From the NCBI GenBank assembly GCA_009840575.1, contig VXNO01000077.1, positions 1 through 34,215 on the forward strand: 34,215 nucleotides of DNA, read 5' to 3'. How positions within the stretch are numbered: the first letter of the stretch is position 1; each line of letters opens with the position of its first letter. The notes under the pieces are model-generated. The model ran no database searches. It saw only the letters and a list, made by a program, of their open reading frames with translations, and was not told the origin of the DNA. Source of the DNA: Chloroflexota bacterium. GTDB lineage: Bacteria > Chloroflexota > Anaerolineae > Aggregatilineales > Phototrophicaceae. Made by a program: the position numbers and the translations under genes. Shown in pieces: positions 145-7,599 of this stretch.

Positions 145-2451
145 TCAGCTGACAATCACGCCATTGATGCGCTGCTCGGCGCTGTGGATATTCTCGATGA
201 ATAGCTGCGTCTCATCGATGATCTGGTGCGCATAATCTTCATCCAGGCGTGCCGGCACCTCGGCATGGCGCTTGAAGAGGTAGCGCGCGAACTTGCCTTT
301 GGCGAAGCGGTCATAGACCAGCTCGGTATCATAGAAGCGCTGGCGGAATTCATTAACGATGCGGTCGCTGTCGTCGCCGACATCCAGGTATTTGGTGCGC
401 ACCAGCGCTCGCGCTGCCAGCAGCATCGCGCGGTAGGCTCGCTCATCCGCGCGCCGAAAGTCGCCATCATCCAGCGCCAGCAGCGCCTCAAAATGCGTCG
501 ACTCGGCTTTGGATATCTCCATTGAAAAGAGCGAAACCACTTCGCCAGCGCATTCGCCGATGCCGATATCCTCAATCGTATACACCCGCGAATCGCCCCA
601 GTCACTGAAGAAAGCCGGGTTTTCTTCGAAGGTCGGCAACTGCATAAAGGGCTTCAGCATGGCTTTGATTTCCCTGCGCCCCAACTGCTTCACCCAGCTT
701 TGGAAGGGCTGGTCTTCGGCGCGCTCGGCGACGTAACGCTCGGTCAGCGCCGCCAGCGCCTCGGGCACCGCCTTGGCGGGGACAGCCCCGACCGCCAAGC
801 CATAGCTGCCGGCGTTCTGCTGCCACTGCCCGCCTAGCACGACCTGGAAATGCGGCAGTTTGTGGTTGCCGCTGCGCCGACTGTTGCCGAAGAAACCAAT
901 ATCCGCCACATGGTGCTGCCCACAGGAATTGAAGCAGCCGCTGACTTTGATTTTCAGCTCGCGCACGGCATCGGGCAACAAGTTGATGCGCTCGATCAAG
1001 CGCGTCCGCAGCTCAGCCGTTAAGCCACGCGAAGAAGCAATGCCCAGCTTGCAAGTATCGGTACCCGGGCAGGTGGTGATATCGACGATCGTGCCGGCAT
1101 GGGCATCACCCAAGCCGATTTCGCGCAGCTCACGGCAGAGCGCCGGCAGGTCGGCATCCGCCACCCAGCGGAAAACGATATTCTGCTCGACTGTGAGACG
1201 GATATTGTCGCCGACATATTTGCGCGCGGTATCCGCCAGCGCAAAAGCCTGCCGCGCGGTGAAATCACCCAGCGGCGTATGTAGGGTGACGACGCTGTAG
1301 CCGGGCTGCGCCTGGCGGTAGACATTGCTGCGATACCAGTCGGCGAAGCCATCGGGCAGCGGCGCGCCATTGAGCAGCAAGCCGGCTTTGGCTGGCGTAT
1401 AAACAAAGTCGTTCACATCGTCCAGGTAGGCGGTGTGGCGTGGATCATGCGGCAAGGTCTCCAGCTCAGCCTCGACCAGGCGACGGAATTCGTCAATGCC
1501 CAGCTTGGCGACCAGGAACTTGAGGCGGGCGCGGTTGCGGTTTTTCTTTTCGCCCAGGCGGGCAAAGACGCGCGCGATCGCCTGTGTCAAGGGCAGCAGC
1601 TCTTCGGGCTTGACGAACTCCGCCAGCGGCTTGGCTTGATGCGGGACTGTGCCCAAGCCGCCGCCGACATAGACTGTGAAGCCGCGCTGCAGCTCGCCAT
1701 TGACTTCGCGGCTTTGCGCCAGCAAGCCCAGGTCGTGCATTTTGACCAGCCCGCAGGCATGCCCCGCGCAGCCAGAAAATGCCACTTTGAACTTGCGCCC
1801 GAAATCTTGCACATCGTCATGCGCCAACAAGAATTGCGTCATGGCATCGGCATAGGGGCTGACATCAAATGCTTCGTCGTGGCAGACGCCTGCCAGCGAG
1901 CACGCGGTGATATTGCGCACGCTGTTGCCGCAAGCCTCTTGGGTGGTGATGCCCACCGCCGCCAGCCGCCGCATCAAATCGGGCGTATCGTCGATATGCA
2001 CATAATGCAACTGAATATCCTGGCGCGTGGTGATATGCAGGATGCCATCGGCGTATTCATCCGCCAGCTCCGCTAGTACTTCCAACTGCCGCGCGCTCAA
2101 ACCGCCATAAGGGATTTTGATGCGCTGCATGCCCGGCGCGTCCCACAAGGTATCGGGTCCCTTGACGATAGTCCCCGACGGATAGTCAAGCGCCTGGGTG
2201 CGCAGTCCATCGTGCCGTTGTCCATTGTCATAGCGCTGCCCATAGACGCCTTTGCGCAGGCGCGCCTCAGCAAAAACTTTCTCATCCATTTTGCCACCCT
2301 GGCGCAATGCCATCTGCGCTTCATAGGTGTCGATGAGCTTGGTCATTTCGGGCGGAATCTCATCTTTGAGCACTTCTTTCCAACTGGTCATTTTGCGTAA
2401 TTCCTTTCCATAATTTGCATAGCGTTGGGCGATAGCCAATCGTTCATTCAA
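145..2451 (-). CDS. sir: Ferredoxin-type nitrite/sulfite reductase (siroheme, 4Fe-4S) with an extra C-terminal helical (HEPN-like) region
   Basis: 768 aa ORF; siroheme/4Fe-4S ligand motifs CPGTDTCKLG and SGCFNSCGQH; last gene of a cysH-siroheme operon; start overlaps cobA stop by 4 nt region. Confidence 0.9.
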   Translation of the reverse strand: MNERLAIAQRYANYGKELRKMTSWKEVLKDEIPPEMTKLIDTYEAQMALRQGGKMDEKVFAEARLRKGVYGQRYDNGQRHDGLRTQALDYPSGTIVKGPDTLWDAPGMQRIKIPYGGLSARQLEVLAELADEYADGILHITTRQDIQLHYVHIDDTPDLMRRLAAVGITTQEACGNSVRNITACSLAGVCHDEAFDVSPYADAMTQFLLAHDDVQDFGRKFKVAFSGCAGHACGLVKMHDLGLLAQSREVNGELQRGFTVYVGGGLGTVPHQAKPLAEFVKPEELLPLTQAIARVFARLGEKKNRNRARLKFLVAKLGIDEFRRLVEAELETLPHDPRHTAYLDDVNDFVYTPAKAGLLLNGAPLPDGFADWYRSNVYRQAQPGYSVVTLHTPLGDFTARQAFALADTARKYVGDNIRLTVEQNIVFRWVADADLPALCRELREIGLGDAHAGTIVDITTCPGTDTCKLGIASSRGLTAELRTRLIERINLLPDAVRELKIKVSGCFNSCGQHHVADIGFFGNSRRSGNHKLPHFQVVLGGQWQQNAGSYGLAVGAVPAKAVPEALAALTERYVAERAEDQPFQSWVKQLGRREIKAMLKPFMQLPTFEENPAFFSDWGDSRVYTIEDIGIGECAGEVVSLFSMEISKAESTHFEALLALDDGDFRRADERAYRAMLLAARALVRTKYLDVGDDSDRIVNEFRQRFYDTELVYDRFAKGKFARYLFKRHAEVPARLDEDYAHQIIDETQLFIENIHSAEQRINGVIVS

Positions 2452-3212
2452 GCGATGTCTGCCAGTTGCGGCAGCAGGTCGACCCAGGCGATGCCCTCAT
2501 CGCGCAGGCGCACTACCTCGCCAAGCACAGTGATGGCGGGCGGGCGGATGGCGTTTTCGCGGGCGGCAGCGGCGATGTTCTCCAACCTGCCAGTGATTGT
2601 GCGCTGGCGGGCTGTCGCGCCCCATTCGATAACAGCGGCTGGCGTATCGCTGGGCATGCCAGCCAATAGCAGCTTGGCGGTGATATTGGGCAGTTGCTTC
2701 ACACCCATGAGGATCACGATCGTGCCGCCCAGCCGCGCCAATGCCGCATAATTGACGCTTCCGGCAATTTCGTGCCCGCTGAGCACGGTGAAGGCGCTGC
2801 TGATGTGGCGCTGAGTCAGAGGGATGCCGGCATAGGCGGGCACGGCAAAGGCGCTGGACACGCCGGGCACCACTTCAAAAGGGATGCCGCAGCGATGACA
2901 TTCAAGCGCTTCTTCGCCACCGCGCCCAAAGACAAAAGGGTCGCCGCCTTTCAGCCGCAGCACATCCCGCCCAGCCAGCGCGCGGTCGATGATGAGAGCA
3001 TTGATGGCGGCTTGCGAGAGGCGGTGGCGGCTCGGCGCTTTGCCAGCGTTGATCAGTTCGGCTTTTGGATGCGTTTCGTCCAGCAACTGGCGCGGAATCA
3101 GCCGGTCATAGATGACCACATCCGCACTCCGCAAGAGCCGCAGCCCCTTGCGCGTAATCAAGTCGGGGTCGCCAGGACCGGCCCCCACCAGGAAGACTCT
3201 GCCAATTGTCAT
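2448..3212 (-). CDS. cobA: Uroporphyrinogen-III C-methyltransferase (SUMT)
   Basis: VFLVGAGPGDPDLITRKGLRLLRSADVVIYD, LKGGDPFVFGRGGEE, VVPGVSSAFAVPAYAGIPLTQR; start set to the MTIGR Met, giving an ATGA overlap with the upstream gene. Confidence 0.95.
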   Translation of the reverse strand: MTIGRVFLVGAGPGDPDLITRKGLRLLRSADVVIYDRLIPRQLLDETHPKAELINAGKAPSRHRLSQAAINALIIDRALAGRDVLRLKGGDPFVFGRGGEEALECHRCGIPFEVVPGVSSAFAVPAYAGIPLTQRHISSAFTVLSGHEIAGSVNYAALARLGGTIVILMGVKQLPNITAKLLLAGMPSDTPAAVIEWGATARQRTITGRLENIAAAARENAIRPPAITVLGEVVRLRDEGIAWVDLLPQLADIA

Positions 3213-4531
3213 GCGCTCTCCTTTTCTTCGTTTTTGCGGGCATTGCTCAGCCACCAGTTGCAAGCCGCCCGACAAGGCATCTCGCGGTCCACGCCATGCC
3301 AGCTCGGCTGCCGCAGGCAAGCGCCACAGATTTCGTCGATTGCGCGTTGAATCACCGCCTGGGGCAGCCGCTCGATGGCTTTGAACATGCCGACTTGCCG
3401 CGCGCCAATTTCCGCCAGCGATTCGGTTGTTAGCGCGCCACGCCGCTGCGCCGACCAGTCGGACACCAAGCCGGGATAGACCGTCTCCAGCACAGCATGG
3501 GCATCAGCGGTCTGCGCCAGCGCCACATGCCAGCCGCCGGGCAAATCCAGGCGCGTCGGCAAGGGGTGAAAAGTCCCTGCGCGCAAGCGGGTTCGCAAAG
3601 CCGCTGGCGAGGAGAATGCCTGGCTGTCGCCGTTTTGGCTGTGCCAGACGCGCTCGCGGGTGAGGCGCAGCGGACCAAAGCGCAGCCGCTCGCCCTGCTC
3701 CAGCGCCGCCAACAAATCGCCCTGCCCCACCCTAGGGAAGCCATCCCATGCGCCACGACCTGTTCGCGCCTCGAAAGGCAGCCCGCTCGTCCGCGCCAGC
3801 GCCAGGATGACCTCGCAGATTGATGCGTCTGTGCCGACTGGCTCTGTGAAATGTACATATCGGTCTTGCACGCGCTCTCCGCCCGTATCGCCAGAGATGC
3901 CCAGCGCGTTCGGCAGATCCTGCCCGACATGGCTGCCTTCGGCGAAGAAATAAGGCAAGGCGATGATGTGCCTGGAGCGCGTGCGCCGGTAGATGCTGGG
4001 GATATCCGGCTGGTCATCCAGGTAGGCGTCTACAACCTCGGCAAAGCAGCCCTTGGCGGCGATGCGCTGTGCCTGGTGGCGGGTGGCATCGCGGCTGCGG
4101 GGGTTGCGGCGCGTGCCATGCCCGATGATAGCGGCGGCTGTCTGCGCAGGTGGCAGGTTACGCGCGCCTACCATGTCGCTCAAACGCTGATCGACGATGC
4201 CATCCAGCAGCGGATGCTGACCGACGGGCGCTGTGTAGTGGACGAGTTTGTCGCCGATGCGCGTTACTGCGCCGCTCAAGCCGATTTCAGCCGGGATGAC
4301 CTGGCGCGTGAAATAGCCATTGGCGGTGAAGAGTGGCACAATGGACACCTGGCGGGCTTCTAGCGTAGCCAAGACTTGCGAGAAAGCCGGCGGCTCCTTC
4401 CAAAAGCAGGCGCTGATCTCATCCGCCACGCCCATGCGCCGCAAGCGATCGACATATCCCCAGACGGTGCCGGCTGTGTTGGCGCTGATGTGCGAGCCAT
4501 GGCCCGCCAGCACGAGGGCGGTTGCGCTCAT
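3209..4531 (-). CDS. cbiX: Sirohydrochlorin chelatase-like protein (two CbiX-like repeats plus Cys-rich C-terminal 4Fe-4S-type region)
   Basis: LVLAGHGSHIS...; second GHGTRRNPRS repeat; C-terminal CGACLRQ...MPCRAACNWW cysteine cluster; located between cobA and precorrin-2 dehydrogenase genes. Confidence 0.8.
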   Translation of the reverse strand: MSATALVLAGHGSHISANTAGTVWGYVDRLRRMGVADEISACFWKEPPAFSQVLATLEARQVSIVPLFTANGYFTRQVIPAEIGLSGAVTRIGDKLVHYTAPVGQHPLLDGIVDQRLSDMVGARNLPPAQTAAAIIGHGTRRNPRSRDATRHQAQRIAAKGCFAEVVDAYLDDQPDIPSIYRRTRSRHIIALPYFFAEGSHVGQDLPNALGISGDTGGERVQDRYVHFTEPVGTDASICEVILALARTSGLPFEARTGRGAWDGFPRVGQGDLLAALEQGERLRFGPLRLTRERVWHSQNGDSQAFSSPAALRTRLRAGTFHPLPTRLDLPGGWHVALAQTADAHAVLETVYPGLVSDWSAQRRGALTTESLAEIGARQVGMFKAIERLPQAVIQRAIDEICGACLRQPSWHGVDREMPCRAACNWWLSNARKNEEKESA

Positions 4532-5178
4532 TCGGCTTTTGCCCCCTCGACGATGCGCTCAAAAACTTGGCGCGCTTGCTCTGCTCGCCCTTGCCGCAGC
4601 AAAGCCAGCACATTGGATGCCAGGATGCGCCGATAGAGTTCTTGCCGTTGTGGCTGGCTGTTGCCGACCTCGCCATCTGCGCGCAAGTCGCCCAGCCAGT
4701 CAGCCAGCGTCGCCCAGTCTTCCGCGCGCTCATCCGCCAGCCGCGCTTTGAGCATTTTTATGAGCGCTGGAGATTTGCCATGGCTGCTGAGCGCGATGGT
4801 CAATGGCGGCTGGTCAATCTGCGCCATGTTGCTGAAGTCGCTGCGCTGGCTGCTGCCATCGGAGACATTGCATAGCGCGCGGATGCGCTGGGCATCTTGC
4901 GCCACCATCTGGTTCACGCGCGGGTCGTCGGTCGCGGCGATGACTAACACCGGCATATCGCTATGAAAACTATCGCGCTGGTAGCTTTCGCGCCGCCACA
5001 GGACTTCGCCCGCCCCCGCCATCTCGATTAAGTCGTCAGTGGCTTGGGGGCTGATGAGCAAGATGCGCGCGCCGGCTTTGCGCAGTTGCCGCACTTTGCG
5101 AGCCGCCACCCGTCCGCCGCCAACCACAGCCACCGGTCGGTCTTGCAGGTGCAGCATGACTGGGTAGCCGCTAGCCAT
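4528..5178 (-). CDS. Precorrin-2 dehydrogenase/sirohydrochlorin ferrochelatase family protein (CysG N-terminal/Met8 type)
   Basis: MLHLQDRPVAVVGGGRVAARKVRQLRKAGARILLISPQ; ATDDPRVNQMVAQDA; ATGA overlap with the cbiX-like gene. Confidence 0.88.
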   Translation of the reverse strand: MASGYPVMLHLQDRPVAVVGGGRVAARKVRQLRKAGARILLISPQATDDLIEMAGAGEVLWRRESYQRDSFHSDMPVLVIAATDDPRVNQMVAQDAQRIRALCNVSDGSSQRSDFSNMAQIDQPPLTIALSSHGKSPALIKMLKARLADERAEDWATLADWLGDLRADGEVGNSQPQRQELYRRILASNVLALLRQGRAEQARQVFERIVEGAKAE

Positions 5179-5884
5179 GAATAGCTGCCTCAACTGGCTT
5201 GGGCAGGTGAATGCCGCATTCAGATTTGCTGTGGCGAGCCCAACGTCCCGCGCGGCTCCCGCCCGCCACAGGCGCCGCATGAGTGCAGGTCCAGCAGCCG
5301 ATGCTAGGATAGCCTTGGTCGTGCAGGGTGTTATACGGCAGTCCGCGCGCGTGGATACTTTCCCATACTTGCGCTTCTGTCCAATTGGCGAAAGGCGCGA
5401 ACTTGATCAGCCCACTGCGCCGGTCGCGGCTGACGATGGGGGTATGGGCGCGGCTGGGGGATTGGTCGCGCCGCAAGCCAGCTACCCAAGCCTTGAAACC
5501 GCTTAATGCCTCGCGCAGGGGAATGGTCTTGCGGATGTGGCAGCAGCGGTCGGGGTTGCGCTCCCACAAGCGGTCGCCATAATCGCGGGCTTGCTGCGCG
5601 AGTGTCTGCCTGGCTTTGACGCGCCGCAAATCCAGCCCGTAGCGCGCTTCCAGCTCCGCCATGAGCGCCAGCGTTTCGGGGAATATCAAGCCGGTATCAA
5701 GCGTGAGCACCGGCGTGCGCGGCGCGATTCGCTGCATCATGTCCAGCGTGAGGATGCCCGTGATCTGAAAACTGCTCACGATAGCCAGCGCGCCCCCGAA
5801 TAGCTCATGCGCGCGGCGCAAAATATCGTCGGGACTGGCGGATTCCAATTGTCGCGCCAGGTCTTGAATCTGTTCCTGTGTCAT
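5171..5884 (-). CDS. cysH: Phosphoadenylyl/adenylyl-sulfate reductase
   Basis: SSFQITGILTLDMM, PVLTLDTGLIFPETL, CCHIRKTIPL, SIGCWTCTHAA...SECGIH; the CC...CxxC pattern fits the 4Fe-4S (APS reductase-like) subgroup. Confidence 0.92.
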   Translation of the reverse strand: MTQEQIQDLARQLESASPDDILRRAHELFGGALAIVSSFQITGILTLDMMQRIAPRTPVLTLDTGLIFPETLALMAELEARYGLDLRRVKARQTLAQQARDYGDRLWERNPDRCCHIRKTIPLREALSGFKAWVAGLRRDQSPSRAHTPIVSRDRRSGLIKFAPFANWTEAQVWESIHARGLPYNTLHDQGYPSIGCWTCTHAAPVAGGSRAGRWARHSKSECGIHLPKPVEAAIHG

Positions 5885-5924
5885 CTCGTCTCCTGTAGGT
5901 TACTGCGGCTTGTTGTCCCCAAAC

Positions 5925-5954
5925 AAAAAGAGCGCCTCGGCTTATCCGAAGCGC
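5925..5954 (-). terminator. Intrinsic terminator T2 in the cysH leader
   Basis: Minus strand GCGCTTCGG-ATAAG-CCGAGGCGC (9 bp, one G-U) followed by TCTTTTTG, 40 nt before the cysH ATG. Confidence 0.85.
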
Positions 5955-6011
5955 CCTGTACATCGTGCAGGTCCTACCGGCAACATCGCGCTGCCAGCCT
6001 CGGATAAGCCG
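5938..6011 (-). promoter_or_regulatory. Antiterminator stem of the cysH-leader attenuator, mutually exclusive with T2
   Basis: 12-bp perfect inverted repeat CGGCTTATCCGA (6011-6000) / TCGGATAAGCCG (5949-5938); the 3' arm consumes part of the T2 5' arm, all of its loop and 3 nt of its 3' arm. Confidence 0.8.
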
Positions 6012-6063
6012 CCCCGGCGGGGGCACAGCAACAACACAGACAGGCTTGCGAAGGGAGAAACAT
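5974..6063 (-). CDS. Cysteine-rich leader peptide 2: MFLPSQACLCCCCAPAGAAYPRLAARCCR*
   Basis: AGGAG SD at 6069-6073 with 5-nt spacing to ATG; TGT CTG TGT TGT TGC TGT tract at 6025-6042; TAG at 5974-5976; 7 Cys in 29 aa; sits inside the attenuator. Confidence 0.75.
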   Translation of the reverse strand: MFLPSQACLCCCCAPAGAAYPRLAARCCR

Positions 6064-6101
6064 GGATGCTCCTGGCATTCCACTAGACGAGAAACTGACA
6101 A

Positions 6102-6131
6102 CAAAAAAGCCCCGCGCCATGCTGGGGCTTT
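6102..6131 (-). terminator. Intrinsic terminator T1, after leader peptide 1 and downstream of rho
   Basis: Minus strand AAAGCCCC-AGCATGGCGC-GGGGCTTTTTTG. Confidence 0.85.
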
Positions 6132-6162
6132 GTGATTTCGCTGCTATTGGGTCAAACGCGAC

Positions 6163-6264
6163 CTAGCGCGACGCCTCCGCACGACAGGCAAGTTCCGCCA
6201 GCCGACAACAACATGCTGCGGCGCAAAGAAAAACGGGGGCGAATTGCTGGGACTTTATGACCAT
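6163..6264 (-). CDS. Cysteine-rich, probably leaderless leader peptide 1: MVIKSQQFAPVFLCAAACCCRLAELACRAEASR*
   Basis: ATG 6 nt after a -10 element; TGC GCC GCA GCA TGT TGT TGT codons; TAG at 6163-6165; followed by T1. Confidence 0.65.
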   Translation of the reverse strand: MVIKSQQFAPVFLCAAACCCRLAELACRAEASR

Positions 6265-6270
6265 AACGGG

Positions 6271-6299
6271 AGCATAGCGGGGAGAAATGGACTTGTCAA
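6271..6299 (-). promoter_or_regulatory. Sigma70-type promoter for the cys leader/operon
   Basis: TTGACA (6294-6299) - 17 nt - TATGCT (6271-6276) on the minus strand; predicted +1 at the ATG at 6264. Confidence 0.75.
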
Positions 6300-6327
6300 G
6301 AGAGAATCTGTCGGCTTGCCCATGATA

Positions 6328-7599
6328 TTAACGGTAGCCGTTGCTGCCGCTCAAGCTGTTGAGGAAGCTCTGGTTGGTATCGTGCAGGCGGAAGCTCTGC
6401 AGCAGCATTTCTGTCGCGCCGACGATGCCTTCCGGTTGTTCCGCCAGGTGCGACCACATGCGCCGCATGGTATAGACGCGCTGCAACACATCGGGGCCCA
6501 GCAGCAGTTCTTCGCGCCGCGTGGAAGATTGCTCAATATCAAAGGCGGGGAAGATGCGCCGTTCTTGCAGTTTGCGGCTCAGGTGCAGTTCCATATTGCC
6601 CGTGCCTTTGAATTCTTCGTAGATGACATCGTCCATTTTGCTGCCGGTATTGACGAGGCAAGTGGCGACGATGGTGAGGCTGCCGCCTTCTTCGACGTTA
6701 CGCGCCGCGCCAAAGAAGCGCTTGGGCGGGTGGATAGCTTGCGGGTCCAAGCCGCCGGACAAGGTGCGGCCGCTGGTAGGCACGACCAGGTTATAGGCGC
6801 GCGCCAGCCGGGTTACGCTATCCAGCATCATCACCACATGGCGCTTGACCTCGACCAGCCGCTTCGCCCGTTCCAGCGCCATCTCCGCCACGCGCACATG
6901 GTGATGCACGGGGTCGTCAAATGTCGAGGCGATGACCTCGGCATCAACCGAGCGATCCATATCGGTTACTTCTTCCGGGCGCTCGCCGATCAGCGCGACC
7001 ATCAGGTGCACATTGGGGTAATTGGTGCTGATGGCGTTGGCGATATCTTTAAGCACAGTGGTTTTGCCGGCTTTGGGTGGCGAGACGATCAAGCCGCGTT
7101 GCCCAAAGCCGACCGGCGCGATGAGATTCAACATGCGCGTGGAGAAGATGCGCGGCGCTGTTTCCAGGTTGAAGCGCGCCTCGGGGAAGATAGGGGTCAG
7201 CCGTTCGAAGTTGGGGCGGTGGCGCACTTCACGCGGGTCCAACCCGTTGACGGCATCGACGCGCAGCAAGCCAAAATACCGTTCGCTGTCTTTGGGCGGG
7301 CGCACCTGGCCGATGACCATATCGCCCGTGCGCAGCTTGAGCCGGTCGATCTGCGAGGCGCTGACATAAATGTCGTTTTTGCCAGGCAGGTAGCCTTCGG
7401 CGCGCAGGAAGCCCATGCCATTTTCAGTAACCTCCAGCACGCCGCCGCGCAATTCGTTACCGCGTCGCTCCGCCTCTTGACGCAGCAAGCCAATAATCAG
7501 GTCTTGTTTTTTCAATCGGCTGAAACGGGGGACATTTCTTTGACGCGCCATGCTGCGCAATTCGGGCAAGGTCTTTGCTTCAAGTTTTCCAATGTTCAT
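6328..7599 (-). CDS. rho: Transcription termination factor Rho
   Basis: [27 protein letters not shown] Walker [39 protein letters not shown]; start at [14 protein letters not shown]. Confidence 0.97.

Follow-up and report, generated by a model that had tools for sequence, protein, structure and literature searches.

The cysH-siroheme-sulfite reductase operon studied here appears to be preceded by two consecutive ribosome-mediated transcription attenuators, both predicted to respond to Cys-tRNA; judging from sequence, we put the probability of this reading at about 0.9. The window, by which we mean the whole analyzed stretch of 34,215 nucleotides from an uncultured Chloroflexota bacterium, carries the operon on its minus strand, where rho ends at 6328 and cysH starts at 5884. 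The 443-nt gap between them holds, in minus-strand order, a promoter, a Cys-rich short ORF (sORF1), terminator 1, a Shine-Dalgarno sequence, a second Cys-rich short ORF (sORF2) and terminator 2, followed by cysH. The original prediction had named these elements, including an antiterminator paired with terminator 2 and the ATG of cysH, and each was found at the minus-strand position it had been given.

The first gene of the operon is cysH (5171..5884, with its ATG at 5884), which matches the PAPS_reduct family (PF01507, E=1.1e-47). It is followed on the same strand by a siroheme synthase N-terminal-type dehydrogenase (4528..5280; PF13241, E=1.5e-23, and PF14824), a CbiX-type chelatase with a C-terminal 4Fe-4S domain (3209..4531; PF01903 and PF18009), a tetrapyrrole methylase of the uroporphyrin-III methyltransferase type (2448..3320; PF00590) and a sulfite/nitrite reductase (145..2451; PF01077 and PF03460). 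The open frame of the dehydrogenase begins within cysH, and the real start of the gene is probably further downstream. These Pfam matches agree with the gene order originally read, cysH followed by siroheme genes and a sulfite/nitrite reductase, and the operon is predicted to convert sulfate to sulfide and to make the siroheme cofactor, supplying cysteine. The promoter, TTGACA-17-TATGCT, lies at 6271..6299 on the minus strand (-35 at 6299-6294, -10 at 6276-6271; predicted +1 at 6264), and TTGAC[AG]-17-TAnnnT was found at the equivalent alignment position in 30 of 32 loci of the genus.

Leader peptide 1, encoded by sORF1 (6163..6264, minus strand), is MVIKSQQFAPVFLCAAACCCRLAELACRAEASR, 33 amino acids with Cys at positions 14, 18, 19, 20 and 27. 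Its ATG falls exactly at the predicted +1, 7 nt past the -10 box, in all five species of the window's clade, so that leader 1 is probably leaderless there, whereas most other species of the genus are likely to start it 26-30 nt downstream of the predicted +1. The mode of initiation of sORF1 would then switch within one genus. Leader peptide 2 is preceded by a Shine-Dalgarno sequence, AGGAG, read from the sequence at 6069..6073; sORF2 (5974..6063, minus strand) encodes MFLPSQACLCCCCAPAGAAYPRLAARCCR, 29 amino acids with Cys at positions 8, 10-13, 27 and 28. The TGT-TGT-TG[TC] run of leader 1 encodes Cys in 32 of 32 species of the genus, with TGT in 95 of 96 codons. The last three codons of the leader 2 run are Cys in 32/32, 29/32 and 31/32 species, TGT and TGC interchanging, and the residues that flank the leader Cys codons vary freely across the genus. 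The leaders prefer the rarer Cys codon, possibly a slower one chosen for sensitivity: the ratio of TGT to TGC is 9:3 in the window leaders versus 7:32 in nine genes of the window (Fisher p = 5e-4), and 273 TGT versus 111 TGC when all leaders are taken together.

When the gap was shuffled with dinucleotide composition preserved, two units of Cys-rich sORF plus terminator appeared in 0 of 2000 sequences and one unit in 13 of 2000. Taken by itself, a run of Cys codons is weak evidence, since TGYTGYTGYTGY occurs 82 times in the genome from which the window comes; these matches are most likely CTG repeats in another frame. Among the 30 of these 82 matches that were examined, only the two window leaders combined a Cys-rich sORF with a terminator. 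What chance does not explain is the combination of elements. Far stronger evidence against chance than the shuffles is conservation: the tandem pair was present in 34/34 genomes of the genus. cysH itself is present in 33 of the 34, and both sORFs lie upstream of it in 32/32 aligned loci and at copy 1 of genome G033. The genus loci were checked for missing Cys runs and for frame shifts, and the attenuator reading survived this comparison. The pair's conservation throughout the genus, and its presence in several of the related genera described below, argue that the tandem is real.

Two genomes of the genus show departures from the common arrangement. In G023 (locus L142, G023:C94:5500-9500) we found no cysH match, and both leaders, MISTCHARCCC... 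and MFYPISRCCCACCCC..., are retained with their terminators before the siroheme genes, at about 1119-1433 of the locus; here the regulator has outlived the first gene of its operon. G033 carries a second copy of cysH (L034, G033:C35:655700-658500) that has no Cys leader or terminator upstream. In the same genome a RimK-like ATP-grasp gene (L144, G033:C25:82000-85500, minus strand) is preceded by a third Cys leader, MMFYSQTTALCCCCTAQNLWGY, and a terminator, which suggests a further locus under Cys attenuation.

The case for mutually exclusive pairings is strong in unit 2. Terminator 2, AGGGCGCTTCGG-ATAAG-CCGAGGCGCTCT plus a T run (5921..5957, minus strand, hairpin 5957-5929), has a stem that is paired in 97.6% of cells, and in several species the T run after it is poor (e.g. 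GCTCGTTGCTTT). The 5' arm of antiterminator 2, GGCTTATCCG (6001..6010), lies within sORF2 and reads GGGTTATCCG in most relatives; the 3' arm, CGGATAAGCC (5939..5948), is common to terminator 2, and in the window the two arms are exact reverse complements. Across 34 species, 97% of cells are paired, 4 of the 10 pairs show changes on both sides, and 0 of 500 shuffles reached the observed covariation score. Sliding the partner by one column reduced pairing to 63% or 45%, and native arms bound better than arms swapped between species (0/5000 permutations, relatedness being ignored). Gly/Ala/Asp/Val changes at the codon preceding TAT are mirrored in the non-coding arm, as is a change of TAT to TGT in L019; since these changes alter the peptide, it is the RNA pairing, and not the peptide, that is maintained. 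A 1:2 (anti-antiterminator) hairpin at 6011..6024 reads GCCCC-CGCC-GGGGC in the window and ACC.TGCC/GGCA.GGT elsewhere, the latter form consuming the start of the 5' arm of antiterminator 2. It is paired in 84% of cells, with 22 double-change cells and a covariation of 0.249 versus 0.088 in shuffled alignments (0/500), a signal that comes mainly from species outside the window's clade. A GGCTGG hairpin that had been assumed for unit 2 was unsupported by the alignment, and minimum-free-energy folding of whole leaders was uninformative (z about -1).

For unit 1, to which the original prediction had assigned no antiterminator, we propose one here. Terminator 1 is a putative intrinsic terminator, AAAGCCCC-loop-GGGGCTTTTTT (6103..6131, minus strand), and its GCCCC...GGGG stem followed by a T run was found in 34/34 genomes of the genus. 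Its loop is also kept, as ACGAC in most members of the genus; a terminator alone does not need this conservation, which fits an antiterminator formed by GTCGT-CGG-GGC, at the end of sORF1, and the terminator's 5' half. The proposed antiterminator 1 pairs GTCGTGCGGAGGC (6173..6185, within sORF1) with GCCCCAGCATGGC (6116..6128), which overlaps the 5' stem and loop of terminator 1. In 32 species 88% of its cells are paired, with zero double changes, so that conservation alone could account for the pairing. Native arms gave -17.05 kcal/mol versus -16.15 for arms swapped between species (1/5000 permutations, relatedness being ignored). Some of the species show covariation in a small hairpin that sequesters the GTCGT arm; a 1:2 hairpin in the same register is absent from about half of them, including the window's clade. 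Together, the conservation and the swap test, with no double changes, support unit 1 less strongly than unit 2, and we regard the evidence for mutually exclusive pairings in unit 1 as moderate. The sequence-testable features of a trp-type attenuator, namely a leader ORF, a terminator, an exclusive antiterminator and appropriate spacing, are all seen in both units, the antiterminator of unit 1 less strongly.

In the mechanism that we propose, a ribosome on the Cys-rich leader of each unit would trail the RNA polymerase. With charged Cys-tRNA at hand, the ribosome would pass the Cys codons and cover the 5' arm of the antiterminator, and the intrinsic terminator would form. When Cys-tRNA is short, the ribosome would stall on the Cys run and block the 1:2 hairpin, leaving the antiterminator arm free to capture the terminator's 5' half, so that transcription would continue. 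Since a transcript must clear terminator 1 and then terminator 2, readthrough would be roughly the product of both, and it is plausible that two units sharpen the response. Leader translation, the response to Cys, the efficiencies of termination and the multiplicative behavior of the two units are what we infer from these arrangements.

The mechanism was modeled with an assumed footprint and assumed kinetics of the ribosome, the downstream RNA being taken as free starting 13 nt past the A-site codon's first base. When the last Cys codon of the run occupied the A site, the antiterminator of the early transcript had a modeled probability of 0.88 in unit 1 and 0.99 in unit 2, versus 0.33 and 0.00 at the last modeled codon (normally the stop), a kind of comparison that carries a built-in length effect which shuffles control in part. 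Ribosome positions upstream of the Cys codons favored the 1:2 hairpin in the model, and downstream positions covered the arm; the antiterminator arm of unit 2 lies 18-24 nt past the last Cys. In the full-length transcript the model favored the terminator even at Cys codons (0.8 on average), with the lowest values there: 0.81 at the last Cys of unit 1 and 0.73 at the penultimate Cys codon position of unit 2. Because the terminator is the equilibrium favorite of the full transcript, the model relies on the antiterminator forming first.

The alternative that we take most seriously, while considering it unlikely, is that only unit 2 works, terminator 1 being a plain rho terminator or sORF1 a relic. 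The lack of double compensatory changes in antiterminator 1 would fit this, as would the position of terminator 1 about 200 nt past the rho stop, but the sORF1 run is Cys in 32/32 species, a promoter lies between rho and sORF1 in 30/32 loci, and the native arms of unit 1 outpair swapped ones. In many species, moreover, rho and cysH lie about 1300 nt apart, yet unit 1 still adjoins unit 2, with the leader near cysH; given the roughly 0.8 kb of extra sequence between rho and the leader in such species, we reject the reading of terminator 1 as rho's own terminator. It is considerably less probable that the leaders act without transcription termination, freeing the cysH start by translational attenuation as is reported for the polycysteine leaders of mycobacteria. 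The probably leaderless Cys-run sORF1 of the window's clade does resemble the mycobacterial leaderless sORFs, as these are cited in PMC9031893; against this, each unit ends in an intrinsic terminator whose T run is conserved in the genus, the alternative pairing partner in the units is the terminator stem, and neither of the structures tested includes the AGGAG region upstream of cysH.

We consider it very improbable that the sORFs encode functional Cys-rich peptides, for example metal- or thiol-binding ones, to which the terminators would be incidental. Clusters of the CCxxCCC type could bind metal, but the peptides of different genera are wholly different except for the Cys cluster, the conserved C-terminal part of leader 2 tracks RNA pairing, with compensated residue changes tolerated, and the leaders are always placed before cysH or siroheme genes. 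The same gene class is under riboswitch or T-box control in other phyla, which counts in favor of direct sensing, either of a sulfur compound or of tRNA, by a riboswitch or T-box; we regard such a sensor as the least credible of these explanations. No Rfam family scored above threshold over the leaders, including any riboswitch or T-box, and the sole low-stringency cis-regulatory match, over unit 1, was to Trp_leader (RF00513; 17.4 bits versus a gathering score of 41), itself a ribosome-mediated attenuator. Tandem Cys attenuation, as first read from the window, withstands every computational check that we could make, being supported by the conserved Cys codons, promoter, terminators and antiterminators, by compensatory changes and spacing, and by the retention of both leaders in G023 despite its loss of cysH.

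Beyond the genus, cysH was found in 86 of the 153 genomes of the same order. A search of 400 genomes of the phylum with a covariance model of unit 2 gave one match besides the window, in G172, which was rejected because only a terminator lies there, close to metK, and a Cys ORF is lacking. This model overlooks diverged units, which were located instead by reading the regions upstream of cysH. Other genera of the same family (G036, G605, G607, G614, G617, G637, G646, G647 and G649) have tandem Cys leaders, every leader having its own terminator, and so do G666 (family f7) and G602 (family f8), 11 pairs in all outside the genus; some MAGs have several per cent contamination, so the single f7 and f8 cases need care. 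A single Cys leader with a terminator was found in G042, G613, G655, G656, G664 and G665, and a candidate one in G496, from outside the order; many other cysH loci among the order's genomes had no Cys leader upstream. In G613 (L178) two terminators come in succession after the single Cys leader; this may be a tandem from which one leader ORF has been lost.

Leader peptides of different genera have only the Cys cluster in common. For 29 leaders from other genera, the modeled antiterminator probability was 0.76 at Cys codons versus 0.33 at the stop, and their duplexes were better than those of shuffled leaders, with a combined p of about 1e-9 over cases that are not independent. In G666 (L180) the two units are plainly copies of one another and share the same 20-nt terminator stem (score 54 versus <=7 in shuffles), and a trace of similarity between units 1 and 2 is left in the window (14.5 versus <=9.5). 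The duplicate units of G666 and the trace in the window suggest that the tandem arose by duplication. We lean, with less confidence than for the attenuators themselves, towards a fuller account: a same-signal tandem that arose by early duplication within one order of Chloroflexota, and was retained across genera, would check Cys-tRNA charging twice in a multiplicative manner, the first leader being leaderless and the second having a Shine-Dalgarno start in the window's clade.

Parts of this arrangement have parallels elsewhere. The attenuators of the trp, his and leu operons of Proteobacteria share with it a leader rich in regulatory codons, the 1:2, 2:3, 3:4 logic of pairing and an intrinsic terminator, and differ in that the codons here are Cys and the units are two in series. 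The uORFC-8-2 motif of Rhodobacterales cysS is a predicted Cys transcription attenuator that also has an upstream ORF with consecutive Cys codons, a terminator-like U run and proposed sensing of Cys-tRNA; it is a single unit with two Cys codons that controls the cysteinyl-tRNA synthetase in Alphaproteobacteria (PMC8632094), whereas the Chloroflexota units are in tandem, with longer Cys runs, before a sulfate-reduction operon. Leader peptides with Cys runs have been reported before the cys operons of Mycobacterium and P. acnes and before cbs of B. longum, with no terminators found (PMC1262725). The polycysteine leaderless sORFs of mycobacteria (Canestrari 2020) reportedly act by translational attenuation, as cited in PMC9031893 and PMC13236596. 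These actinobacterial leaders resemble ours in placing a Cys run before cysteine biosynthesis genes, and in the leaderless start that is also predicted for sORF1 of the window's clade, but they are single and no terminators were found with them, whereas both units of the Chloroflexota tandem have intrinsic ones. The mycobacterial precedent first invoked for the window is therefore looser than implied: Cys-run leaders are indeed known there, but in these sources they are reported as translational and without terminators.

Tandem attenuators are known for other signals. Salmonella mgtCBR has two leader ORFs, each with its own attenuator, for ATP-related and proline signals, and was called a singular example by its authors; its attenuators sense different signals, whereas both Chloroflexota units carry the same codon (PMC3641672). 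The macrolide attenuators of mefA/msrD form a 'double-lock', in which two same-signal leader attenuators on one gene suppress basal expression; they depend on antibiotic-induced arrest and belong to two separate leaders of a resistance operon (PMC10314930), as against amino-acid starvation and two adjacent units within one 400-nt leader in Chloroflexota. In the open-access literature that we searched, no report combined Chloroflexi, leader peptide, attenuation and cysteine. Single Cys leaders and tandems for other signals are thus already known, and what is added here is the predicted leaderless sORF1 of the window's clade, the preference for TGT and a tandem that recurs across one order.

These observations extend attenuation by amino-acid leader peptides, here as a tandem for one signal, to the sulfate assimilation of Chloroflexota. 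They also provide a sequence signature for spotting Cys attenuators where poly-Cys sORFs lack annotation. The alignment of 34 genomes supplies ready compensatory variants, and one transcript offers two leaders of the same kind, the first probably leaderless and the second with a Shine-Dalgarno start. For the cell, the tandem probably allows the supply of cysteine to be read twice before the enzymes are synthesized, and it would be a natural case in which to see the benefit of two identical sensors in series, namely a lower basal level and a steeper response.
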